From assembly GCA_012519205.1 (NCBI GenBank), contig JAAYQR010000010.1, positions 62,001 to 126,000 on the forward strand: DNA of 64,000 nt. The letters run 5' to 3'. Position numbers and translations under genes: made by a program. The notes below the pieces were generated by a model, which was not told the origin of the DNA, ran no database searches, and saw only the letters and a list, made by a program, of their open reading frames with translations. The DNA comes from Candidatus Epulonipiscium sp. (GTDB lineage: Bacteria; Bacillota; Clostridia; Lachnospirales; Defluviitaleaceae). This document shows, in pieces, positions 48,115 through 64,000 of the stretch; positions within the stretch are counted from its first letter, which is position 1; each line of letters begins with the position of its first letter.

Positions 48115-48852
48115 ATGGAGGGTAATTTAAATTTAAATGCAATGGAAACCGAGGAAAAACCCCTAGGATTTTTCCAAAAACTAATAGGGATATTTGTAAA
48201 TCCTAAGGAAGTTATTGAGGATATTTTAAGCTATCCTAAAATGCTTTTGCCCCTGATTTATACATCTATTCTTATAATTGCTGTATATTACATACGGCTA
48301 CCTTTAGTCCCTATCACCAATCAAAAGATGGCAGATATCTATTTGCAATACGGGATGGATCTATCCCAACAGTTAGAGCAAAATAATACATTATATTATA
48401 TTAGTGGCTTATTTGGGCCCCTTTCCTTACTAATGATTTGGGGTATTGGTGGGATATTTCTATGGCTTATTGCAAAGATATTCGGCGATAAATCTAGTAT
48501 TAAGCAGATTTATTCCCTTTATGCCCATGCATTTATGATTATTGAAACAGGGGCACTTATTGCAGCACCCTTAGGGCTCTTACTAAAAACAGATATCGTT
48601 ATCTTTTCCCCGGCAGCTTTTATGCCCAATGGCAATGCCGCGAGTTTCTTGTATAACTTTTTAAGTATGTTTGAGTTCTTCACCATCTGGGGGATGTTGT
48701 TTGCAGGTTTAGGGATTTCTTTATTTAATCAGTTCAGTAAACTAAAAGGAATGATTATCGCCTTCCTACACCTTCTATTAGGTAATGCATTTATTGCATT
48801 TACTGCTACTTTGCAGTTTCTTATGTTGAATTTAGTAAACAAAAATATCTAG
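48115..48852 (+). CDS. YIP1 family membrane protein, copy 1
   Basis: A 245-aa protein with about five hydrophobic helices; the soluble N-terminus (about 1-40) contains GFFQKLIGIFVNPKEVIEDI, typical of bacterial Yip1-domain proteins. Its job is not known. It is 11 bp before a MacA-type adaptor gene and so probably belongs to that exporter unit. SD GAGAGGAG. A second YIP1 gene is at 63162. Confidence 0.82.
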   Translation: MEGNLNLNAMETEEKPLGFFQKLIGIFVNPKEVIEDILSYPKMLLPLIYTSILIIAVYYIRLPLVPITNQKMADIYLQYGMDLSQQLEQNNTLYYISGLFGPLSLLMIWGIGGIFLWLIAKIFGDKSSIKQIYSLYAHAFMIIETGALIAAPLGLLLKTDIVIFSPAAFMPNGNAASFLYNFLSMFEFFTIWGMLFAGLGISLFNQFSKLKGMIIAFLHLLLGNAFIAFTATLQFLMLNLVNKNI

Positions 48853-48863
48853 GGAGAATGCTC

Positions 48864-50342
48864 ATGAATACTAAAATTAAATCGATAAATAATAAAAAAC
48901 TAATAATGGGTATAGGTATAGTATCCATATTAACTATATTTGTTGTTGTAGCTGCTATCAATCAAAAAAATCCCTCTGATTCCAAGGGGATGCCCAAATC
49001 TGGTATCCCAGTAAATATTGAAGAAGCTAGAATAGATACTCTTATTTCAAAGGTAAGTGCTACAGGAATAGTAGAGGCAAAAGAGTCAGAAACTGTATAC
49101 GTTAGCAATACCCTAAAAATCGAAGATATCCTTGTGGAAACAGGGGATACAGTAAAGAAGGATGAGGCTCTAGTAAATTATGATCCTTCTTTTAAAAAAG
49201 AGTTAGAACAACAATTAAAAGAAGCAGAAATAGCTTTGCAAAATGCAGATTTAAGGTTGCAGTCTATGACAACTGCAGACCAAATAGAAATCCTTAATGC
49301 GGAATCCTCCCTTTCACAGGCTCAAAAAATGTTCAGGGATACGCAAACCTTCTTAAACCAAATTGAACTTTCAGTAGAACAGTTAAAACTTAAAGTAAAA
49401 GATGCCGAGAAAAACTTAGAAAATAACAAAATACTCTTTAATGAAGGGGCCATAGCTAAAAGGGATCTAGATGAGTCTAATAGACAGCTTACGGAACTTA
49501 AAAATCAATTATCAACAGAAGAAATGAAAATCCAATCTGCTAAACTAGACATAGAAAATGCAGAAAAGCAGAAATCCATAGCACAACATAATTTGTCAAC
49601 CACATATAATAAATTTTCAGATCCAAAACAGGAGGCAGAGATAAAAATCCAAAAAAATCAGGTGGAATCCCAAAAGATGAGAGTGGACACTCTAAAAGAA
49701 AAGCTAGAAGAGCAGCTTCTATCTTCAAAAGCTTCGATGAATGGAACAGTGGTAGAAATTTTTGCTGAAAAAGGTGCCTGGATTAATCAAAACTCCCCCT
49801 TACTAAAGATATCGAATTTGGATAATTTGATTATTAAAGTAAATATGTCCGAGTATGATGCCCCTTCTATAGAAAAAGGTCAAAGGGTTACCTTTAAGGG
49901 GGATGCCATAAAAAATGCCTTAGTAGAAGGCAGAGTAAGTCATGTTGCTCCGACAGCAACAATTCAAAACATGGGAAATAGCCAAGAAGCAATGGTAGAG
50001 GTAACAATAGAAGTATTAAATAAAGATTCTACACTTAAACCTGGATATACCGTAGATGTGGAGATTATCACTGCAGAGCATGAAGACACTGTTGTGATAC
50101 CATTGCTTGGGGTTGTAGATGAAAAGGATGGTACAAAAATAGCATATATTATGAAAGACGATTACACTGTAGAAAGAAGAGTTGTTAAGACAGGGATTTA
50201 TTCTGATTTATACGTAGAGGTAACTGGGGTTAATGAAGGAGAAAAAATAATCACAAATTATAACCCTAATATCAAAGAAGGTGCTAAGGTAAAACCCTTA
50301 GAAACAAAAACTCAATTAGGTGATGGCCATGATAAAAATTGA
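48864..50342 (+). CDS. MacA-like efflux adaptor (HlyD/RND membrane-fusion family)
   Basis: A 492-aa protein with one N-terminal membrane helix (about 14-32), a lipoyl half-domain (VSATGIVEAKESETVYVSN near 57, EDILVETGDTVKKDEALVNY near 82-101), a long coiled coil (about 108-290), the second lipoyl half (ASMNGTVVEIFAEKGAWIN near 290) and beta-barrel and membrane-proximal domains (about 320-480). Links an ABC pump to the cell surface. ATG 48864 chosen after AGGGAGA. Overlaps the ATPase gene by 14 nt. Confidence 0.9.
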   Translation: MNTKIKSINNKKLIMGIGIVSILTIFVVVAAINQKNPSDSKGMPKSGIPVNIEEARIDTLISKVSATGIVEAKESETVYVSNTLKIEDILVETGDTVKKDEALVNYDPSFKKELEQQLKEAEIALQNADLRLQSMTTADQIEILNAESSLSQAQKMFRDTQTFLNQIELSVEQLKLKVKDAEKNLENNKILFNEGAIAKRDLDESNRQLTELKNQLSTEEMKIQSAKLDIENAEKQKSIAQHNLSTTYNKFSDPKQEAEIKIQKNQVESQKMRVDTLKEKLEEQLLSSKASMNGTVVEIFAEKGAWINQNSPLLKISNLDNLIIKVNMSEYDAPSIEKGQRVTFKGDAIKNALVEGRVSHVAPTATIQNMGNSQEAMVEVTIEVLNKDSTLKPGYTVDVEIITAEHEDTVVIPLLGVVDEKDGTKIAYIMKDDYTVERRVVKTGIYSDLYVEVTGVNEGEKIITNYNPNIKEGAKVKPLETKTQLGDGHDKN

Positions 50343-51036
50343 AGCCCTTCATAAGACTTATAAAAACGGAAAAATAGAGGTAGCCGCCCTAAAAAATATA
50401 TCCCTAAAGGTCATTCCTAAAGAATTTGTAGCCATTATGGGGGCTTCAGGCTCCGGAAAATCTACCCTCATGAATATATTAGGGTGTCTAGATCGCTCCA
50501 CAAGCGGGAAATACTATCTAGATAAGGTAGATATATCCTCCCTAGAAGACAATGATTTGGCTGCTATCCGAAATATTAAAATCGGCTTTGTGTTTCAGGC
50601 ATTTAACCTTCTTCCCAAACTAACTGCACTAGAAAATGTCGAGCTGCCTATGATTTATGCCGGGGCAAAGCATAAGGAAAGAAAAGAAAAAGCCATGTTA
50701 GCCTTAGAAAGAGTGGGGCTAGCTGATAGAATAGATCATCGTCCTAACGAACTATCAGGGGGGCAAAAACAAAGGGTGGCTATTGCTAGAGCCTTGGTTA
50801 ATTCTCCATCCATTTTGTTAGCAGATGAGCCTACAGGGAACTTAGACAGTAAATCCAGCAAGGAAATAATGGGTATTTTTCAAAAGTTAAATGAAGAAGG
50901 GGTAACCATAGTCATGGTTACCCATGAGATGGATGTAGCTGAGCATACAAAAAGAATAGTTACATCTAAAGATGGGGAAATTATATCGGATAAGGCCGTA
51001 TTAACCACCATCAAAGCAGGGGGGAATGAATTATGA
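50329..51036 (+). CDS. ABC transporter ATPase, MacB/LolD type
   Basis: A 235-aa nucleotide-binding subunit: Walker A GASGSGKST near residue 40, Q-loop FQAFNLLPKLTALENVELP near 90-108, signature LSGGQKQRVAIARAL near 141, Walker B ILLADEPTGNLDS near 161, H-loop MVTHEMDVAEH near 195. It pairs with the MacB-like permease that follows. The ATG at 50329 is preceded by AGGTGA; earlier GTG/ATG codons overlap the adaptor gene. Confidence 0.94.
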   Translation: MIKIEALHKTYKNGKIEVAALKNISLKVIPKEFVAIMGASGSGKSTLMNILGCLDRSTSGKYYLDKVDISSLEDNDLAAIRNIKIGFVFQAFNLLPKLTALENVELPMIYAGAKHKERKEKAMLALERVGLADRIDHRPNELSGGQKQRVAIARALVNSPSILLADEPTGNLDSKSSKEIMGIFQKLNEEGVTIVMVTHEMDVAEHTKRIVTSKDGEIISDKAVLTTIKAGGNEL

Positions 51037-52244
51037 ATTTAACAGAAAGTATAAAGTCTGCCTTTAGAAATCTCCTTGCAAATAAAATGCGTTCCTTCCT
51101 CACTATGCTGGGAATTATAATTGGAATTGGCTCAGTGATTATGATTACTTCCGTAGGTGCAGGAAGCCAATCTGCCATTACGGCAGATTTTGATAAACTA
51201 GGAGTAGGGATGCTTACCATACAAATGAAAAATCCTAACAAAGCAAAGACTAGGGATTTTCTTACTTTAGATGATACAGAATTGATTCGAAAGCATCCTG
51301 AGGTAGAAAATGTATGTCCTTATTTTCAGGGGTGGGGTGCATCTGTTAAGTTAAAAAACCCTAAGGAAGAAAAAGAAAGCCTAATCAATGGAATCAATGA
51401 GGATTTTAGATTTCTTTCTTCACAGGAACTTCTATATGGCCGCCATATTATAGAGTCAGATGGTAAGACAAAAAGCAAGGTAGTAATCATTGATGAAGTA
51501 CTTGCCCAAAAGGTATTTGCAAGAAAAGATGTTGTCGGTGAGACCATAGCAGTCACTCTGTGGAGGGGAACCTATGATTTTACTATCATTGGAGTATCAA
51601 AAAACGCAAATGCTGCGTTAGAATCCATGATGGGAGATCAAATGCCCTCTATGCTATACGCACCTATTGAAACAGTTAATGATATGTATAGATATGATTA
51701 TGTGGATTATTTTTATGTTACAACTAAGGATGCCAGCAGTGCTGATCAAACTGCTTTAGAACTAACTAAAATGTTAGAAACAAAACATAGAAATGAAGAT
51801 GCATATTTTGTAAAAAATGCGGCCCAGGATTTAGAAATGGTAAACAATATACTAGGCATCATCACTGGTTTTATAAGTTTTGTTGCCGGCATTTCCTTAC
51901 TGGTAGGAGGCGTCGGGGTAATGAACATTATGCTAGTCACCGTTACGGAAAGAACCAGGGAAATTGGCATAAGAAAATCTCTGGGAGCTAAAAACAAAGA
52001 TATCAGGCAGCAGTTTTTAATAGAGGCGGTTATTCTAACCATAATCGGTGGGGTCATCGGGATTACCCTTGGGTTTTTAGGGGGCATTGGAATAGGCTCT
52101 GCTATGAAAATCACGCCAAAGATATCCTCCCTATCCATAATCGTTACTGTTGGAGTATCTACAATTATTGGTATCATAGCTGGGGTTTATCCGGCAAATA
52201 AGGCTGCCAAACTAGACCCAATCGAGGCTCTTCGATATGAATGA
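51033..52244 (+). CDS. ABC transporter permease, MacB/FtsX family
   Basis: A 403-aa permease with a first membrane helix (about 20-42), a large extracellular MacB-PCD domain (about 45-260), and three more helices in the C-terminal FtsX region (about 277-395, GISLLVGGVGVMNIMLVTVTERTREIGIRKSLGA near 288-321 split). With the adaptor and ATPase it forms a macrolide/peptide-type exporter; substrate unknown. Overlaps the ATPase stop by 4 nt. Confidence 0.92.
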   Translation: MNLTESIKSAFRNLLANKMRSFLTMLGIIIGIGSVIMITSVGAGSQSAITADFDKLGVGMLTIQMKNPNKAKTRDFLTLDDTELIRKHPEVENVCPYFQGWGASVKLKNPKEEKESLINGINEDFRFLSSQELLYGRHIIESDGKTKSKVVIIDEVLAQKVFARKDVVGETIAVTLWRGTYDFTIIGVSKNANAALESMMGDQMPSMLYAPIETVNDMYRYDYVDYFYVTTKDASSADQTALELTKMLETKHRNEDAYFVKNAAQDLEMVNNILGIITGFISFVAGISLLVGGVGVMNIMLVTVTERTREIGIRKSLGAKNKDIRQQFLIEAVILTIIGGVIGITLGFLGGIGIGSAMKITPKISSLSIIVTVGVSTIIGIIAGVYPANKAAKLDPIEALRYE

Positions 52245-55598: not shown

Positions 55599-56462
55599 TT
55601 ATATCTCTTCTTTACAATGCAGCCCTTTAAACTCAGAGGGGGTGCATTTTTTTATGGATTTAAATACTCTATTAAAGGTAGATATACTAGAAAATCCTGA
55701 CTGCATAGCTACGTCAGTGATAGAAAGATTGGGGTTAAGCAGTTGGGATTCGGCTACCCTTACTCGGGTTTGGTTTAGATATTCGTTGAAGGTTTTGTTG
55801 GTAAATTGTTTAAACAATCTAGAAAAATGAAACTTGCTAAAGCCTGCTATATCGGCTATTTTTTCTAGGGAGATGTCTTCCGCATAATTTTTATCAATAT
55901 AATCAAATACCTGATTAAATTTTTCGATATAGTTCTTTTGTAAAGTACCAGTATACTGGGTACCATTACCCATATGCTTTCTACCCAAGATAATAAACAT
56001 CTGTATAACCTTGGTATATATGGAGGCCTCACTTAAGGCATTGTCACTTAAATATTCATCTATGATATCCAGGAGGAGGTTTTTAAATTTCATGTGTATA
56101 TCTAAAGAATGAGAAGGTGTTAATAAATGAGGCTGCATTAATATTGGGAAAATACCATTAAAGCCGGTTAATTGACTTATAATCGAAAAATCAAATTGAA
56201 ATATTATCCTTACTCCTTTAGGAGGAGCAACCAATTCATGGAGTTCCCCTGGTGGTATAATTAGTATATCCCCTTCATTTAAAGCATAGCTAACCTTATT
56301 GATAATCACTGTGTAATCATTTTCCAAGGGCATAATGATTTCTGTAGCCGTATGCCAATGTATCGGATAATCCTCAAACTCCTTATTAATGTATAAAAGA
56401 AATACGGATGACTTCCTCCCATAAGCAACCGTTTCAAAAATCCCATCTAAATATTTAATCAT
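55599..56462 (-). CDS. AraC family transcriptional regulator
   Basis: A 287-aa regulator. The N-terminal cupin-like sensing domain (about 25-115, IHWHTATEIIMPLENDY near 34, LIIPPGELHELV near 66) is followed by a linker helix region and two helix-turn-helices at the C-terminus (about 186-280, ISLEKIADIAGFSKFHFSRLF and ITDVAMQSGFSSISTFNRVF). Divergent from the sugar-transport cluster, it is probably its activator. ATG at 56462 behind AAGAGGTG. The effector is unknown, presumably a sugar. Confidence 0.9.
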   Translation of the reverse strand: MIKYLDGIFETVAYGRKSSVFLLYINKEFEDYPIHWHTATEIIMPLENDYTVIINKVSYALNEGDILIIPPGELHELVAPPKGVRIIFQFDFSIISQLTGFNGIFPILMQPHLLTPSHSLDIHMKFKNLLLDIIDEYLSDNALSEASIYTKVIQMFIILGRKHMGNGTQYTGTLQKNYIEKFNQVFDYIDKNYAEDISLEKIADIAGFSKFHFSRLFKQFTNKTFNEYLNQTRVRVAESQLLNPNLSITDVAMQSGFSSISTFNRVFKSIKKCTPSEFKGLHCKEEI

Positions 56463-56850
56463 TATGCTCACCTCTTAAAATAATTCATAAATAATGTTAC
56501 TGATATAATTTTAAAATATACAAAAATAACAATTGTCAAATCTTGCTATGAAAACCGCAAAGTATTGTAAGGATTTAATAATAAATCTTTTTAATATTAT
56601 AATACATTTCTTAAAGCCTGTAAAGAAGGGGCTATGAAGTGGGGAAAACACGGTGAATTTATTTTATTAAAAAATAAATATGAAAACTATTTTCAAAATC
56701 TAATATTTGCAAACAACAATATCTGATAGAAATAAAGCAATATATGATAAGTATATATTCTAAAAAGATTATAAAATTATAATAAACCCTAATAAATTTC
56801 GAGAAAACATTATAAATATGTGCAATTCAAACAAAAAGGAGAGAAGCAAC
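56463..56850. other. Divergent regulatory region, 388 bp without a gene
   Basis: Very AT-rich spacer between the AraC gene and the binding-protein gene. It holds the 15-bp palindrome TGAAAACTATTTTCA (56681-56695), two 12-bp direct repeats (56717-56749) and a -10-like TATAAT (56778-56783) with no good -35. No clear promoter for the AraC gene or catabolite (cre) site was found. Confidence 0.6.
56717..56749 (+). promoter_or_regulatory. Candidate AraC-type operator: two direct repeats, 21 bp apart
   Basis: CAATATCTGATA (56717-56728) and CAATATATGATA (56738-56749) differ at one base and start 21 bp apart, exactly two helix turns. This is the usual layout for AraC-family activators. The downstream copy ends about 28 bp before a TATAAT (56778), just upstream of where a -35 would be, fitting activation of the cluster. 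Confidence 0.6.
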
Positions 56851-59769
56851 ATGCCGGCAAAAAGAAAGAAGCATATAGGACTAAGTATATCTATAACAGG
56901 TGCCATACTATTTATTGCCCTGTATTTCATTTACCAGAATATTGGAAGTGGAATGAAAGAGGATAATCTAAAAAATACTTATACTTTAGCAGCAGAGGCA
57001 AAAGAAGATATAGGAAGAAACAATACCTATGGTGTTTATCTTAAAAAATTTGATACGGCAAAATCTCCCAAGGATGAAATAGAAATAAACCTCTTTGAGT
57101 ATACGGATTCTAAAGAGGTAGAAATAAAGGAAAATTTCTCTGGGGAGGAGAAGGTGCTCCTGTCAAAGGAAGAAGGCTTTGTAGAATGGAATGTGGAGGT
57201 AAAGGAAGCCGGCCTATACAGCATTTATATCGAATATTTCCCCGTAAAATCTAAGGGAATAGATATAGAAAGGATTGTATACATCAATGGAGAAGTTCCT
57301 TTCCTTGGGGCCGATACCATAACCCTTAGCCGAGTTTGGACAGATAAAGGAGAAGCAAAGGTAGACAATAGAGGTAATGAAATAAAACCCAGTCAAATTG
57401 AAGCCCCCAGATGGGAAGCAGATTATTTCAAAGATTACATGGGGTATTATGTAGAACCTTATCAATTTTATTTTAATAAAGGTATGAACTCCATTAAATT
57501 AGAAGTTGCCAGTGAACCCATGGCCATAAGAAAAATAGTATTAAAAAATACTGGTGAATTAAAATCTTATAAGGATTACATTGCCTCTTTTAACGTAGAT
57601 AGCTATAAAAACTCAGACAAAGACTATATGTATAAGGTGCAAGGGGAGGATGCTACATTCCGTTCAGCCCCCACCTTATATGCGATTTACGATAGGTCCT
57701 CATCTAATACGGAGCCCTATAGTGCAGCCAAAATAAAGCTTAATATGGCTGGTGGGGAGCAATGGAAGGTGCCTGGTCAGTGGATGGAATGGGAAATTGA
57801 AGTTCCTGAAGATGGGATGTATGCTCTATCCATTAAGGGAAGGCAGAATTATAATAGAGGATTTGTATCCAATAGAAAAGTTTTAATAGATGGAAAAGTG
57901 CCCTTTAAAGAAATATCTACAGTTCCTTTTAAGTACAGCAATGAATGGAACTTAGTTACCTTAGGAGAAGAAGAACCTTATTCCTTCCCCTTAACTAAGG
58001 GAAAACATATTGTGCGGATGGAAATCACCTTAGGAGAACTGGGGGAATATCTCAATACACTGGAAGAGAGTGTCTTTAGACTTAATGAAATGTATCGAAA
58101 AATATTAATATTAACAGGAACCCAGCCCGACAGATACAGGGATTATCAAATCGAAAAAGTATATCCAGAAATTATAAGTGCCATGGAAAGGGAAAGTGAG
58201 ATTTTACTTGATCTGGTCGAGCAATTGGTATCCTATTCGGGACAAAAAGGTTCCCAAGTGGCAGCTGCCCAAACCGTTGCAAATCAACTAATTAAATTTG
58301 CAGATAAACCGGAAAAAATACCTCCTGCAATGGAAAATTTCAAAACCAATATAGGTTCCCTAGGAACATCTATATTAACCATGACAGAGTCACCCCTTGA
58401 TATCGACTACCTAATCGTTAGTGCCATAGATGCAGAGATACCTGTGGTAAAGGAAAACTTTATAGATAAGGTGGTACACGAAACCCGTTCGTTTTTTGCT
58501 TCTTTCTTTGAAGATTATGATTCTATAGGTAATGTTTATGAAGATGAAGAAAACACCGTGGAGGTGTGGGTATTATCCGGTCGTGATCAATCCCAAATCA
58601 TTAAAAATATGATAGACGATACATTTACTCCTGAAACTGGTATTGGAGTAAATGTGAAACTAATCAGCCAAGAGGTATTATTGCCTTCAGTTGTTGCCGG
58701 AACAGGACCGGACGTTGCCATAAATGTCCCACAGACAGAACCTGTAAATTTTGCATTAAGAAATGCAGCAGAAGATTTGTCAAAATATGAAGGATTTGAT
58801 GAAATATCCAAAAACTTTTACGATAGTGCCCTTCTACCATATCGCTACAACGGTGGTATTTACGCCATACCAGAAACTCAAAACTATCAGGTTATGTTTT
58901 ATCGTAAGGATATCATGGAAGAACTAGGACTTGAAATACCCCAGACTTGGGAAGAAGTTATTAAAATTCTTCCTACAATACAAAAAAATAATATGAATTT
59001 TGGTATTCCTACTACGGAAAAAAGGGTAGGTAATGCCAATACAGTGGATATATCAGCATTTTTAGTTCAATTGTATCAAAGAAGGGGAACTCTCTATTCT
59101 GAGGATGCTTCCAAATCGATAATAGATGCAGAAGTTGGAGTTGAAGCATTTGAATTTTGGACGAAACTATTTACCCATTATAAGCTTCCACTTACTTATG
59201 ACTTTGTAAACCGTTTTAGAACCGGGGAAATGCCCCTTGGAATTGCAGATTACAATACATTCAACACCCTTTCGGTATTTGCCCCTGAAATCAGAGGATT
59301 ATGGAGTTTTAGTCCTTTACCAGGAGTTACAGATGAAAATGGAAGGATTAATCGGGCTTCATCCAGCTGGGGAGTGAATGCATTGATGTTATCCGATACT
59401 AAGAACAAAGATGCTTCTTGGGAATTTTTAAAATGGTGGGCTGATACCGATACACAGGTAAGATTTGGTAGAGAAATGGAAAGTATAATGGGAGCATCTG
59501 CTAGATATGCTACGGCAAATACCAAAGCCTTTGAACAATTGGCTTGGAGCAATGCCAATAATAAAACCTTAAAAGAGCAGTGGGAATGGGTTGAATGTGC
59601 CCCTGAAGTGCCGGGGGGTTACTATACATCAAGACATATCGTAAACGCATATAGAAAAGTTGTTTACAATAACGAAGATCCAAGAGAAACCCTATTAGAC
59701 TACACAAGAACGATTAATGATGAGCTGGAAAAAAAGAGAAAAGAATTCGGTCTTACAACAGGGGATTAA
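56851..59769 (+). CDS. Large surface-anchored sugar-binding protein (two carbohydrate-binding-like domains fused to an ABC solute-binding domain)
   Basis: A 972-aa protein, more than twice the size of a normal binding protein. In order: basic N-terminus and a membrane helix (about 8-26), beta-rich region 1 (about 75-235; VEWNVEVKEAGLYSIYIEYF, YINGEVPF), beta-rich region 2 (about 265-395; MEWEIEVPEDGMYALSIKG, LIDGKVPF), a helical segment (about 405-540), and a C-terminal family-1 solute-binding domain (about 569-972; GTGPDVAINVPQTEPVNFALR, YAIPETQNYQVMFYRKDIM). The two beta regions share a repeated pattern and look like carbohydrate-binding modules. It lacks a lipobox and is probably held by its N-terminal helix. 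Two permease genes follow. Confidence 0.82.
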   Translation: MPAKRKKHIGLSISITGAILFIALYFIYQNIGSGMKEDNLKNTYTLAAEAKEDIGRNNTYGVYLKKFDTAKSPKDEIEINLFEYTDSKEVEIKENFSGEEKVLLSKEEGFVEWNVEVKEAGLYSIYIEYFPVKSKGIDIERIVYINGEVPFLGADTITLSRVWTDKGEAKVDNRGNEIKPSQIEAPRWEADYFKDYMGYYVEPYQFYFNKGMNSIKLEVASEPMAIRKIVLKNTGELKSYKDYIASFNVDSYKNSDKDYMYKVQGEDATFRSAPTLYAIYDRSSSNTEPYSAAKIKLNMAGGEQWKVPGQWMEWEIEVPEDGMYALSIKGRQNYNRGFVSNRKVLIDGKVPFKEISTVPFKYSNEWNLVTLGEEEPYSFPLTKGKHIVRMEITLGELGEYLNTLEESVFRLNEMYRKILILTGTQPDRYRDYQIEKVYPEIISAMERESEILLDLVEQLVSYSGQKGSQVAAAQTVANQLIKFADKPEKIPPAMENFKTNIGSLGTSILTMTESPLDIDYLIVSAIDAEIPVVKENFIDKVVHETRSFFASFFEDYDSIGNVYEDEENTVEVWVLSGRDQSQIIKNMIDDTFTPETGIGVNVKLISQEVLLPSVVAGTGPDVAINVPQTEPVNFALRNAAEDLSKYEGFDEISKNFYDSALLPYRYNGGIYAIPETQNYQVMFYRKDIMEELGLEIPQTWEEVIKILPTIQKNNMNFGIPTTEKRVGNANTVDISAFLVQLYQRRGTLYSEDASKSIIDAEVGVEAFEFWTKLFTHYKLPLTYDFVNRFRTGEMPLGIADYNTFNTLSVFAPEIRGLWSFSPLPGVTDENGRINRASSSWGVNALMLSDTKNKDASWEFLKWWADTDTQVRFGREMESIMGASARYATANTKAFEQLAWSNANNKTLKEQWEWVECAPEVPGGYYTSRHIVNAYRKVVYNNEDPRETLLDYTRTINDELEKKRKEFGLTTGD

Positions 59770-59815
59770 GAATAACAGCCTTATGGTATATGCCTGATGG
59801 GGAAAGGAAGATTGG

Positions 59816-60787
59816 ATGAATACAGAATTTGAAAGGAATAAAAGTTTTGTGGGTCTAAAAATAGAAGAGTGGAAACAAAAAAAGAAAAAAGATTTGGGTA
59901 TCATTTGGAAAAAGATGAAGCTGTCAAAAACATACTATTTATTTTTGGCCCCCTATGCCATATTGTTTAGCATATTCTACATTTTACCAGTTATCGTATC
60001 CATATTTTTTAGCTTCACCTATTACAACGTACTAGAGCCCCCTAGATTTATCGGCTTACAAAATTATATTAATCTTATTTTGGCAGATGATGTGTTCCTA
60101 ATAGCAGTCAAAAACACATTTTTGCTGGCCGCTATTACGGGGCCTATCGGATACCTGGCTTCATTTATATTTGCATGGTTTATCAATGAACTGCCAAGAT
60201 ACATTCGATCCTTTGCAGTACTAATATTCTATGCCCCAACCATTTCCGGGCAGGTATATCTTATCTGGGCAATCATGTTCAGTGGAGATGCCTATGGATA
60301 TGTCAATGCATTCTTAATGAGGCTAGGAATTGTCCATGAGCCCATACTTTGGCTTACCGACCCTAAGTATATGATGCCTGTTATCATATTGGTCGTTCTA
60401 TGGATGAGTTTGGGAACAGGGTTTTTATCCTTTGTCGCAGGACTCCAGGGGGTCGATAATGCCCTTTTTGAAGCCGGCTATGTGGATGGCATTCGAAATA
60501 GATGGCAGGAACTTTGGTACATTACATTGCCAAGTATGAGACCTCAGCTTTTATTCGGAGCAGTTATGGCAATTACCCAATCCTTTGGGGTAGCAGATGT
60601 AACCATGGCCCTAGCTGGATTTCCCAGTACGGATTATGCCGCTAGAACAGTGGTAACCCACCTAATAGATTATGGTTCTATTAGATTTGAGATGGGATAT
60701 GCATCAGCAATAGCAACGGTATTGTTCTTATCAATGATATTCACAAATAAAGTGGTTCACTCACTTATTAAAAAAGTCGGAACCTGA
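59816..60787 (+). CDS. Sugar ABC transporter permease (MalF/UgpA type)
   Basis: A 323-aa membrane protein with about six helices. The coupling-loop EAA motif is near residue 220: EAGYVDGIRNRWQELWYITLP. The cytosolic N-terminus (about 1-40) is charged and longer than usual. Together with the next gene it forms the channel for the 972-aa binding protein. No ATPase gene is in the cluster; sugar importers often share MsmX-type ATPases encoded elsewhere. Confidence 0.92.
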   Translation: MNTEFERNKSFVGLKIEEWKQKKKKDLGIIWKKMKLSKTYYLFLAPYAILFSIFYILPVIVSIFFSFTYYNVLEPPRFIGLQNYINLILADDVFLIAVKNTFLLAAITGPIGYLASFIFAWFINELPRYIRSFAVLIFYAPTISGQVYLIWAIMFSGDAYGYVNAFLMRLGIVHEPILWLTDPKYMMPVIILVVLWMSLGTGFLSFVAGLQGVDNALFEAGYVDGIRNRWQELWYITLPSMRPQLLFGAVMAITQSFGVADVTMALAGFPSTDYAARTVVTHLIDYGSIRFEMGYASAIATVLFLSMIFTNKVVHSLIKKVGT

Positions 60788-60809
60788 TGTAAGGGAGATA
60801 GGATTCATT

Positions 60810-61667
60810 ATGAAGATATTTAAAAAAAGAAAACCAAATAGATCCCGAGGTGGAGACTTTAGCATATACACCATGCTAATACTCTTTGGTATATTTATGG
60901 CTCTCCCCTTGGTTTACGCTATCAATAATGCATTTAAACCTTTAGATGAAATCTTTCTTTTCCCCCCTAGGTTTTTTGTTAAAAATCCTTCCCTAGATAA
61001 TTTTCAAGATTTATTTGTAATCATGGGTAAATCATGGGTTCCTTTTTCAAGATACATTTTCAACACCATGTTTATTACGGCAGTGGGTACTGCAGGTCAT
61101 TTGATTTTTGCTTCGATGGGAGCATATGTACTAGCCAAATATGAATTTCCAGGAAGTAAAGTGTTTTTTAATATTGTCGTTACAGCCCTTATGTTTTCAG
61201 GGTATGTTACATCCATACCCAATTATCTTATTATGACAAAATTGGGATGGGTAGATACTTATCTTTCCGTAATTATTCCTGCATTTGCTTCACCTATGGG
61301 ATTATTTTTAATGAAGCAATTTATGGAAGGGATACCGGATTCCCTTATAGAGGCTGCTAAAATTGATGGGGCAAAAGAAGGAAGAATATTTTTTAATATT
61401 GTTATGCCTATGGTAAAACCTGCATGGTTGACTTTGATTATTTTTTCAATCCAGAACTTATGGAACAATAAAGCATCAAATTTTATCTATTCAGAAGAAC
61501 TTAAAACATTGCCCTATGCCTTACAACAGATTATCAACGGTGGGGTAGCAAGGGCTGGAGTAGGGGCTGCAGTATCTTTATTTATGATGATTGTGCCCAT
61601 TGCAGTGTTTATCCTAACACAAAGTAATATCATAGAAACCATGGCTACTTCTGGGATAAAGGATTGA
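60810..61667 (+). CDS. Sugar ABC transporter permease (MalG/UgpE type)
   Basis: A 285-aa permease with six helices. The EAA loop is EAAKIDGAKEGRIFFNIVMP near residue 182. The start follows AGGGAGATAGG. Typical second subunit beside MalF-type permeases. It ends 1 bp before an NHL gene frame, suggesting co-translation of the whole cluster. Confidence 0.92.
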   Translation: MKIFKKRKPNRSRGGDFSIYTMLILFGIFMALPLVYAINNAFKPLDEIFLFPPRFFVKNPSLDNFQDLFVIMGKSWVPFSRYIFNTMFITAVGTAGHLIFASMGAYVLAKYEFPGSKVFFNIVVTALMFSGYVTSIPNYLIMTKLGWVDTYLSVIIPAFASPMGLFLMKQFMEGIPDSLIEAAKIDGAKEGRIFFNIVMPMVKPAWLTLIIFSIQNLWNNKASNFIYSEELKTLPYALQQIINGGVARAGVGAAVSLFMMIVPIAVFILTQSNIIETMATSGIKD

Positions 61668-61680
61668 GGTGAATGCAAAA

Positions 61681-63165
61681 ATGAAGAGAAAAAACATATG
61701 GACTCTGTTCTTTATACTGGTAATTACTTTTATTTTTCCAGCGTCGGCATCTGCTGCCAAGAACTTTTATACCTATACCTATGATTATTGGGGGGATGAA
61801 AGGGAATCCCCGGATGCATATGTACCAGGAATTGTGCTAATGGGGCAGGACTTAGGTACCATAAATCTTAGAGAGCCCCAAGGAATGTTCGTCAAGGAAA
61901 ATAAGGTTTATATAGCGGACTCCGGTAATAACAGAATCATAATAGCCGAAAAAACTAATCAAGGTTTTCAGCTGTACGGGATTATTGAATCCTTTGTATT
62001 AGAAGGGGAAAAAAGCACCTTATCCTATCCCCAAGATGTATTTGTAAAGGAAAATGGAGATATTTATATTTGTGATACCAATAATCAAAGGGTTTTACAT
62101 TTGGACAAAAACTTAAACTTTATTAAGCAGATTGCAAAGCCTAAAGATGAAACCATAGAAGGAACATCGGAGTTTTTGGTACAAAAATTAGTAGTCGATG
62201 ATGCAAATAGAGTTTATGTGCTGGTGAAGAATGTGAACAAAGGATTGATGGAATTTGATTCGGAAGGCACCTTTACAGGATATATAGGAGCAAACAAAGT
62301 AATCGCAAATATTACAGACTATATTTGGAAGAGTATTTCAACAAAGGCTCAAAGGGCACAAATGGAGCTGTTTGTTCCGACAGAATATAATAATGTAGCC
62401 TTAGATAAAGAAGGTTTTATTTATACCACAACTAGTACCCTTGATAATAAGGATATCTATACTGGGACAGCAACTCCTATCAGAAAGCTTAACTCCATGG
62501 GGACGGATATTTTGATTAGAAATGGTTTTCATCCCCCTATAGGGGATATCTACTGGGGAAAAGCAGGAGGAATTAATGGGCCATCAAGACTTATAGATAT
62601 TGTTCCCTTGGAAAACGATTCTTATAGTGCCATAGATAGGGTAAGAGGTAGGATTTTTACCTATGATTCCCAAGGAAACCTTTTGTATGCCTTTGGAGGT
62701 TTGGGAAATAAAACAGGATATTTTCAATATCCTTCTGCCATAGAAGCCATGGGAGATTCCTTATTAGTTCTAGACTATAGATCGGGTACTATACAAGAAT
62801 TACTCATTACTGAGTATGGAAAGTTAATCAATCAAGGTTTAGCACTATATCAAAAAGGAAGATATGAGGAATCGGCAGAAAAGTGGGAAGAAGTGCTAAA
62901 ACTAAACGGCAATTATGATTTAGCATATGTGGGAATCGGCCGTTCCCTGCTACGCCAAGGGGAATATAAAAAGGCGATGGAATACTTTAAGCTGAAAATG
63001 GATTTTAAAAATTATTCGAAGGCCTATAAGTTTTATCGTAAGCAATGGATAGAAGAAAATATCGCCTGGATTATCTTAGGGTTAGTTTTATTATATATAC
63101 TCCCTAAAATCAAAAGATTAATCGTGAAAATCATTATGCTAAGGAAAACGGAGGTAGAGCGATGA
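61681..63165 (+). CDS. Secreted NHL-repeat protein with TPR and C-terminal membrane helix
   Basis: A 494-aa protein: signal-type N-terminus ending ASASAA (about 1-27), NHL beta-propeller repeats (about 45-375; LREPQGMFVKENKVYIADSGNNR and LSYPQDVFVKENGDIYICDTNNQR, shown in part), a TPR-like pair (about 390-450) and a C-terminal membrane helix (about 462-482) with a basic tail. The propeller therefore faces outside. ATG at 61681 behind GAGGTGA. Function unknown; found inside the sugar-transport cluster, it may sense or scaffold carbohydrate at the surface. Confidence 0.8.
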   Translation: MKRKNIWTLFFILVITFIFPASASAAKNFYTYTYDYWGDERESPDAYVPGIVLMGQDLGTINLREPQGMFVKENKVYIADSGNNRIIIAEKTNQGFQLYGIIESFVLEGEKSTLSYPQDVFVKENGDIYICDTNNQRVLHLDKNLNFIKQIAKPKDETIEGTSEFLVQKLVVDDANRVYVLVKNVNKGLMEFDSEGTFTGYIGANKVIANITDYIWKSISTKAQRAQMELFVPTEYNNVALDKEGFIYTTTSTLDNKDIYTGTATPIRKLNSMGTDILIRNGFHPPIGDIYWGKAGGINGPSRLIDIVPLENDSYSAIDRVRGRIFTYDSQGNLLYAFGGLGNKTGYFQYPSAIEAMGDSLLVLDYRSGTIQELLITEYGKLINQGLALYQKGRYEESAEKWEEVLKLNGNYDLAYVGIGRSLLRQGEYKKAMEYFKLKMDFKNYSKAYKFYRKQWIEENIAWIILGLVLLYILPKIKRLIVKIIMLRKTEVER

Positions 63166-63836
63166 GAGCAATGATGGAAAAGACAGAATCTCTAAACCAA
63201 AGCAAACTCCAAAACTTATTAAAATCCTTAAAGTTTTCCTTACATGTTATAGTTAGACCTTTTGATGGGTTTTGGGACTTGATCCACGAAAAAAGAGGTT
63301 CAATAGGGGCAGCCAATATTATTTTTATAATGGTACTGATTACAAATGTCTTAAAAATGCAGTTTACCAGTTTTCTTTTTTATAGGATTCAACTGGAATA
63401 TGTGAATATGTTTAAGGTGCTTTTGGGGATTATTGTCCCCTTTGGGATTTGGTGTGTTTCCAACTGGAGTTTAACTACCTTAATGGATGGAAAGGGTAGT
63501 TTAAAAGATATATATATGGCAACCGCTTACGCCTTTACCCCTTATGTTTTGATCAACCTTCCCATGACTGTGATAAGCAACCTAATCACCCTTGAAGAAG
63601 GGGCATTTTATCAGTACTTTATAGCATTTGCAATGTTATGGTGTATATTCCTTATCCTATGTGCCATGATGATGATCCATGATTATTCCATGGGAAAAGC
63701 CATATTTTCAAGCTTACTTACAATCGTTGGGATGGGAGTTATCATATTCTTAACATTACTCTTCTTTAGTCTGATAAGTGATGGAATCGGGTACCTTATC
63801 TCCTTGTATAAAGAAATCGTATTTAGGTTTTATTAA
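63162..63836 (+). CDS. YIP1 family membrane protein, copy 2
   Basis: A 224-aa protein with a soluble N-terminus (about 1-40, containing RPFDGFWDLIHEKRG) and about five membrane helices, matching the Yip1 domain. Overlaps the NHL gene by 4 nt, so it is tightly coupled. Role unknown; such proteins recur in clusters of this composition, which is why an association with the transporter is inferred. Confidence 0.82.
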   Translation: MRAMMEKTESLNQSKLQNLLKSLKFSLHVIVRPFDGFWDLIHEKRGSIGAANIIFIMVLITNVLKMQFTSFLFYRIQLEYVNMFKVLLGIIVPFGIWCVSNWSLTTLMDGKGSLKDIYMATAYAFTPYVLINLPMTVISNLITLEEGAFYQYFIAFAMLWCIFLILCAMMMIHDYSMGKAIFSSLLTIVGMGVIIFLTLLFFSLISDGIGYLISLYKEIVFRFY

Positions 63837-63866
63837 AATGGACCTGAAAGGAGGGGACTGGCGACT

Positions 63867-64000
63867 ATGAAATATAAGGTAATTCTATTATTGATGGTAC
63901 TGTCCATAGGTTTTACCGGATGCCAAAGTAAGGTCAGTAATAGTAATATTTCAGAAATTTATGGCTATGAAGCCACAGATGAAAAGGAAATACTTGTTGA
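63867..64000 (+). CDS. Lipoprotein, 5' end only
   Basis: The first 44 codons run off the right edge. The N-terminus is a lipoprotein signal: MKYKVILLLMVLSIGFTGCQ with lipobox FTGC, Cys19 as the lipid-bearing residue. AAAGGAGGGG is the SD sequence. The body cannot be classified from this fragment. It likely continues the sugar cluster, perhaps as another surface carbohydrate component. Confidence 0.75.
   Translation, partial: MKYKVILLLMVLSIGFTGCQSKVSNSNISEIYGYEATDEKEILV

Follow-up and report, generated by a model that had tools for sequence, protein, structure and literature searches.

A dual-permease cassette with an NHL/TPR-YIP1 unit and a GH129-fold DUF5696 protein in Candidatus Epulonipiscium sp., probably serving the uptake of xylan oligosaccharides

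What does a bacterium take up with a 972-aa membrane-anchored binding protein that is encoded beside permeases, an NHL/TPR protein and a YIP1 protein, and with no ATPase among them? This question is raised by positions 56851-64000 of a stretch of 64,000 nucleotides from Candidatus Epulonipiscium sp. (contig C10, bases 62001-126000; the genome comprises 2.1 Mb in 28 contigs), hereafter the window. The original prediction had seen in this region a device that captures large glycans at the surface and hands them to a shared ATPase, and had considered its substrate unnameable. By reading downstream beyond the window edge (locus L004; window coordinate = L004 + 54000), we found that the edge cuts, inside the sixth gene, a nine-gene cassette that runs SBP1-P1-P2-NHL/TPR-YIP1-DUF5696-P3-P4-SBP2, where SBP stands for solute-binding protein and P for permease. 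Our best explanation, which we hold to be fairly likely as a whole, is that the region forms the front half of one operon-like cassette, which would capture and import xylan-derived oligosaccharides through two permease pairs, with an NHL-YIP1 unit as a holder and a non-hydrolytic DUF5696 protein. This explanation draws on computed results: the domains and folds, the order and co-occurrence of the genes, the fusion of NHL to YIP1, the presence of a single ATPase, the linked enzymes and the loss of expected acids.

The predicted genes for two permeases, an NHL/TPR protein, a YIP1 protein and a lipoprotein all lie at the place and on the strand foreseen for them. Past the edge follow the rest of the DUF5696 gene (844 aa in all), permeases 3 and 4, SBP2 with a lipobox, a xylanase of glycoside hydrolase family 10 (GH10) with a CBM4_9 module, and a GH3 enzyme, after whose gene a strong terminator-like hairpin marks the end of the operon. 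A single permease pair without partners past the edge was rejected, as the downstream sequence holds P3, P4 and SBP2; the two permeases first recognized belong to a dual-transporter cassette rather than to a single pair.

It is from the linked enzymes that the substrate can be named. In the window operon, these are GH10+CBM4_9 and GH3, with GH67 additionally found in close relatives, and such neighbors make xylan oligosaccharides a very probable substrate here. As oligosaccharides suffice to explain permeases of the CUT1 type, the capture of "large glycans" stays conjectural. Across 107 loci, the same-strand enzymes are mainly of two kinds, directed at xylan (GH10/GH3/GH67/GH43) or at mannan (GH26/GH130/GH5), and roughly half of the loci have none of the enzymes sought; the substrate can accordingly be named as xylan in the branch of the window and as beta-mannan in others (GH26 and GH130 neighbors). 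These substrate labels are clustered on the SBP1 tree (5 changes vs. 9.3 expected, a value as low being reached in 1 of 500 shuffles) and also switch between close relatives (L128 vs. L145-L149; L058 vs. L059). The SBP1 of the window groups with a Mobilitalea xylan group, and the same genome holds, on contig C23 (L006:4841-17685), next to prfA-like and LacI genes, a second, diverged nine-gene copy whose SBP1 groups with GH26-linked (mannan) Paenibacillaceae cassettes, so the genome probably holds one cassette of each type. Most genes of the two copies are 31-60% identical (SBP2 28%), and a recent duplication was rejected, given that the copies are 42% identical in SBP1 and 31% in DUF5696 and sit on different, well-supported branches. 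A search of the genome for a GH26 gene to match the mannan-branch copy gave only a weak partial match.

The gene order of the window is that published for the xylan degradation locus of Caldicellulosiruptor bescii (Athe_0174-0185), which reads xloEFG-X-GH129-axoFGE followed by xylan enzymes, and whose proximal genes are upregulated ~10- to 100-fold on xylan (PMC8579813); our locus is therefore of a known kind. The corresponding locus of C. saccharolyticus responds to biomass (PMC5658599). Two hallmarks of the C. bescii locus, namely the E-F-G, X, GH129-type, F-G-E order and the presence of xylan-active enzymes in the operon, are found here, and by position, X corresponds to NHL-YIP1 and GH129 to DUF5696. 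The two loci differ in that X is a single gene in C. bescii when NHL and YIP1 are two genes in the window, in that a LacI-type regulator was proposed there when an AraC gene adjoins the cassette here, and in that only GH10 and GH3 follow in the window cassette. In the genomes that we label f93, a fused NHL-YIP1, DUF5696, GH43 and GH10 come in that order, the GH129-type protein being short (~740 aa). The existence of the cassette and its link to xylan are hence already published for Caldicellulosiruptor, and the literature searched leaves its accessory proteins unexplained: we found no paper on DUF5696, none on a YIP1/solute-binding set or on NHL/xylan/Paenibacillus, and nothing relevant on GH129 with a solute-binding protein and xylan. 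What looks new here is the identity of X as NHL/TPR-YIP1, the apparent loss of the GH129/GH101 catalytic pair and the spread of the cassette.

With regard to this spread, a comparison of DUF5696 loci from named genomes (588 relatives, 80 kept), carried beyond the right edge of the window as the original prediction had suggested, revealed that the whole set is conserved, far past the permeases. The order SBP1-P1-P2-NHL-YIP1-DUF5696-P3-P4-SBP2 dominates across Bacillota and Treponema, with a Paenibacillaceae variant in which SBP2 has moved to the front. Among 398 genomes of the phylum, taken as a fixed set, a strong DUF5696 match is found in 37, the N-terminal part of SBP1 in 39 and the NHL protein in 38, all three occurring together in 37 (Fisher p ~1e-50, uncorrected for kinship), and the NHL protein is present in 37/37 DUF5696-positive genomes. 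The exceptions are three genomes with one part each: SBP1 alone in G104 and G154, and in G243 an NHL protein matched in part, within an open frame of 284 aa. The distance matrices of the individual parts are also correlated with one another (r 0.83-0.94 over 65 loci). SBP2 and DUF5696 are the most variable parts (median identity 0.25 and 0.31, against 0.57 and 0.56 for P1 and P2, the least variable), a pattern that fits both of them being the parts that touch the substrate. Certain families have the SBP1-P1-P2 half separated from the rest or relocated (L121, L122, L123, L134, L136), with every part still present in the genome. Spirochaetota, mostly Treponema metagenome-assembled genomes (L040, L044, L045, L048, L053, L062, L069), carry the cassette as well, mostly with GH130 and GH5; these Treponema cassettes are nested in a clostridial branch, which suggests a transfer between phyla.

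The architecture that had been proposed for SBP1, a membrane helix, two modules resembling carbohydrate-binding modules (CBMs) and a solute-binding domain, is borne out by hydropathy, by an AlphaFold2 (AF2) model with its fold matches and by a SBP_bac_1 domain (PF01547, E 7.7e-23). The protein starts at the ATG at 56851, preceded by an AGGAG site, and its N-terminal part is 37-56% identical to relatives. Modeled from 39 sequences (residues 60-585; pLDDT 87.6, pTM 0.85), it carries, according to the model, two CBM35/CBM6-type beta-sandwiches: module 1 matches 4qb1 (Z 13.2; 120 residues, 2.1 A) and 2w47 (Z 13.1) in a fold search, and module 2 resembles the CBM35 of 5x7g by profile (E 5.2e-6), with tandem fold matches to 5x7o and 6f2p. 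In Pfam, SBP1 stays below the cut-off for CBM_35 (E 0.0088; 16.8 bits vs. a cut-off of 28). Its C-terminal domain matches sugar-binding proteins of the PDB (best 5ysb, E 2.5e-13), and SBP2 weakly matches the arabino-oligosaccharide-binding protein 6rjy and MBP1 4r9f. In L074 and L126 (G103), about five consecutive SBP2 genes follow a single cassette, which looks like several binding proteins feeding one permease pair.

The gene at 63867, taken at first for that of a lipoprotein, does encode a lipobox-like N-terminus, and its product is identified as a GH129-fold DUF5696 protein (PF18952). PF18952 alone was matched in Pfam, PF11308 (GH129) not being among the matches. Profiles of 20 and 46 members retrieved GH129-type structures from the PDB (E 6e-11 and 2e-11), and the model of the Mobilitalea ortholog (pLDDT 90.9) aligned with Z 29.9 to both DagB (5opq, 585 residues) and NagBb (5wzn, 573 residues), the next folds, GH13 and GH36, reaching Z ~19. 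The model holds the complete GH129 layout, with a beta-sandwich, a TIM barrel and an Ig-like domain. No PF11308 match was found in 199 genomes, a plasmid search was also without useful match, and the direct alignment partners of DUF5696 were GH101-type proteins in place of GH129 sequences. With hhalign, neither a true GH101 (L140) nor a short relative (L141) gave a useful alignment. The GH101-like protein of genome G082 (L144) could be aligned weakly, with a probability of only 33%, though with offsets that agree with DagB: the "SLRDxG" column falls opposite the residue that we take to be the nucleophile of that protein, and both proteins have the motif DxxIPxxQxxxHG. This 883-aa protein (contig C2) may itself stand between GH101 and GH129.

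In 101 DUF5696 proteins, the nucleophile-equivalent column is occupied by Asp 61 times; the other 40 proteins, among them the window copy (Gly634), have T, N, S, Y, G, H, V or E there, and the acid/base-equivalent columns hold mostly Gly, Ser or Ala and almost no acid. The GH129 pair, that is, the Asp of NagBb (D435) and DagB (D486) with the acid/base Glu517 of DagB (PMC5698469), is therefore not found in DUF5696, as far as a moderately sure mapping can tell, when Asp642 (89/101), Asp702 (95/101) and Glu738 (100/101) are kept. For all the likeness to NagBb and DagB in whole fold and in a weak sequence relation, DUF5696 thus differs from them by its acid/base column, its variable nucleophile column, its membrane anchor and its tie to a transporter. 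On the basis of this apparent loss of the catalytic pair, we read DUF5696 as non-hydrolytic and more a holder than a hydrolase, somewhat in preference to any other role. An alternative, which we deem unlikely, is an active alpha-glycosidase that would trim side chains at the surface before import (glucuronosyl or arabinosyl of xylan, galactosyl of mannan) by residues outside the GH129/GH101 pair. The complete fold, the linked genes for enzymes that act on branched xylan and mannan, and the near invariance of Asp702 and Glu738 speak for it, as do the nucleophile-equivalent Asp of the closest relatives (L041, L042, L043, L056) and the fact that DagB itself departs from NagBb in its catalytic residues (PMC5698469). 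The near absence of an acid at the acid/base-equivalent columns argues against it, and so does the loss of the nucleophile-equivalent Asp in many intact cassettes, including that of the window.

From the transporter side, P1 and P2 both have a BPD_transp_1 domain and an EAA loop, with an SBP_bac_1 protein alongside, and the operon contains no ATPase gene. Beside 34 BPD_transp_1 permease matches, the genome holds a single MalK-type ATPase (one OB_MalK match, on contig C12), far from both cassettes; the idea of a shared ATPase therefore stands, and both permease pairs are very likely driven by it. Growth of C. bescii on cellobiose, cellulose, xylan and pectin suffers severely when its shared ATPase MsmK is deleted (PMC8579813). 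The cassette thus resembles CUT1 (MalEFG/MsmX-dependent) importers by its permease type, its SBP_bac_1 domains and its reliance on one MalK-type ATPase in the genome, and departs from them by its two permease pairs, its CBM-armed membrane-anchored binding protein and its three non-transporter partners. One could also see here two independent ABC (ATP-binding cassette) importers with passenger genes, brought into one operon only through a common polysaccharide: both halves possess a binding protein and an EAA-loop permease pair of their own, the C. bescii locus is annotated as two transporters (PMC8579813), and some families carry the SBP1-P1-P2 half at another place in the genome. The strict gene order, the co-occurrence of the non-transporter genes in 37/37 genomes even where the cassette is split and the fusion of NHL to YIP1 make this reading improbable.

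This fusion is seen in several lineages, in 23 of 78 loci altogether, and where NHL and YIP1 are unfused, their genes are adjacent with a median overlap of 4 bp. As the Yip1 protein YknW modulates the assembly of an ABC complex (PMC4887032), NHL-YIP1 may by analogy be a membrane subunit for assembly or holding, a role to which we give about an even chance; YknWXYZ, in which YknW goes with a MacB-type exporter, resembles the cassette in that genes for a YIP1 protein and an ABC transporter go together, and differs in being an exporter without NHL/TPR domain and without sugar-binding proteins. A YknWXYZ-like exporter set, with consecutive genes for YIP1, HlyD-type, ABC ATPase and MacB/FtsX proteins, lies at 48115-52244, as a second YIP1-with-transporter arrangement inside the window. 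That NHL/TPR-YIP1 and SBP1 would instead sense surface glycan for neighboring regulators, with transport as a separate job of the permeases, is suggested by a divergent AraC gene beside Lachnospirales cassettes, a LacI gene beside Paenibacillus ones and the interaction folds of propeller and TPR, and appears most improbable, since a domain scan found no signaling domain in any cassette part, the regulators vary by branch when the cassette is constant, and gene order and overlap with the permease genes are tight.

Returning to the import cassette, we infer from the above its substrate, the binding roles, the scaffold role and any physical complex, and propose the following course, by which soil and gut bacteria most likely retain plant-fiber fragments (here of xylan) at their surface and take them up. 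The GH10 xylanase would cut glucuronoxylan outside the cell; the tandem CBM35-like modules of SBP1 would hold the products near the membrane; SBP1 and SBP2 would pass them to two MalFG-type pairs, P1/P2 and P3/P4, both powered by the single MsmK/MsmX-like ATPase; and the GH3 enzyme would split the oligosaccharides after import. NHL/TPR and YIP1 would act as one membrane subunit, with propeller and TPR outside and YIP1 in the membrane, holding or assembling the pieces, and the anchored DUF5696 protein would most likely bind or orient the branched glycan, without hydrolysis by the GH129/GH101 mechanism. Several points weigh against this scheme. The C. bescii proteins were matched to the cassette through gene order and names rather than through sequence; Cry toxin domains stand in the same list of fold matches as the CBMs, and CBM-type folds also occur in other kinds of proteins, so the fold alone is no proof of glycan binding; the mapping of the DUF5696 columns comes from one weak profile alignment with offsets matching DagB; and Asp642, Asp702 and Glu738 could, judging from their conservation, support another chemistry. 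A bolder form of the scheme, which we offer tentatively and would not expect to hold, is that all parts make up one surface supercomplex with two coupled permease pairs, a CBM-armed SBP1, an NHL/TPR-YIP1 scaffold and a retired GH129-fold glycan holder, a Gram-positive counterpart of SusCD-type machines that would be adapted to xylan or to mannan through an exchange of SBP2, DUF5696 and the linked enzymes.

Features of the cassette and its neighbor within the window (window coordinates)
Feature	Position	Strand	Basis
AraC-type regulator, divergent from cassette	55599..56471	-	PF00165 E 5.7e-24
SBP1, membrane-anchored binding protein, 972 aa, XloE-like	56851..59769	+	ORF (open reading frame); PF01547
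SBP1 N-terminal membrane helix	56875..56931	+	hydropathy
SBP1 module 1, CBM35/CBM6-type beta-sandwich (predicted)	57064..57555	+	AF2 model; match to 4qb1
SBP1 module 2, second CBM35-like beta-sandwich (predicted)	57628..58029	+	profile match to 5x7g CBM35; tandem folds; model strands
SBP1 helical-bundle linker (predicted)	58036..58386	+	AF2 model helices, model residues 348-464
SBP1 solute-binding domain	58594..59457	+	PF01547; PDB sugar-binding proteins
P1, MalF-type permease	59816..60787	+	PF00528 E 1.2e-8; EAA loop EAGYVDG
P2, MalG-type permease	60810..61667	+	PF00528 E 4.8e-11; EAA loop EAAKIDG
NHL propeller + TPR protein	61669..63165	+	PF01436 E 1.7e-12; TPR_2 E 5.2e-9; signal sequence and C-terminal membrane helix (hydropathy)
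YIP1 membrane protein	63162..63836	+	PF04893 E 1.2e-12; 4 bp overlap with NHL gene
DUF5696 gene start, 844 aa, GH129-fold, lipobox-like N-terminus	63867..64000, on to window-equivalent 66401	+	PF18952 E 8.3e-197

As for regulation, an AraC-type gene is found at the matching divergent position in five other loci (L041, L042, L051, L055, L056), and the one of the window is the probable local regulator of the cassette.

If our explanation is true, a widespread and essentially unannotated gene set turns into a well-delimited cassette for hemicellulose uptake whose parts can be tested, and DUF5696 can serve, in Clostridia, Paenibacillaceae and termite-gut Treponema, as a marker of importers for xylan or mannan. 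A retired glycosidase fold within a transporter set would, in addition, be an unusual design.

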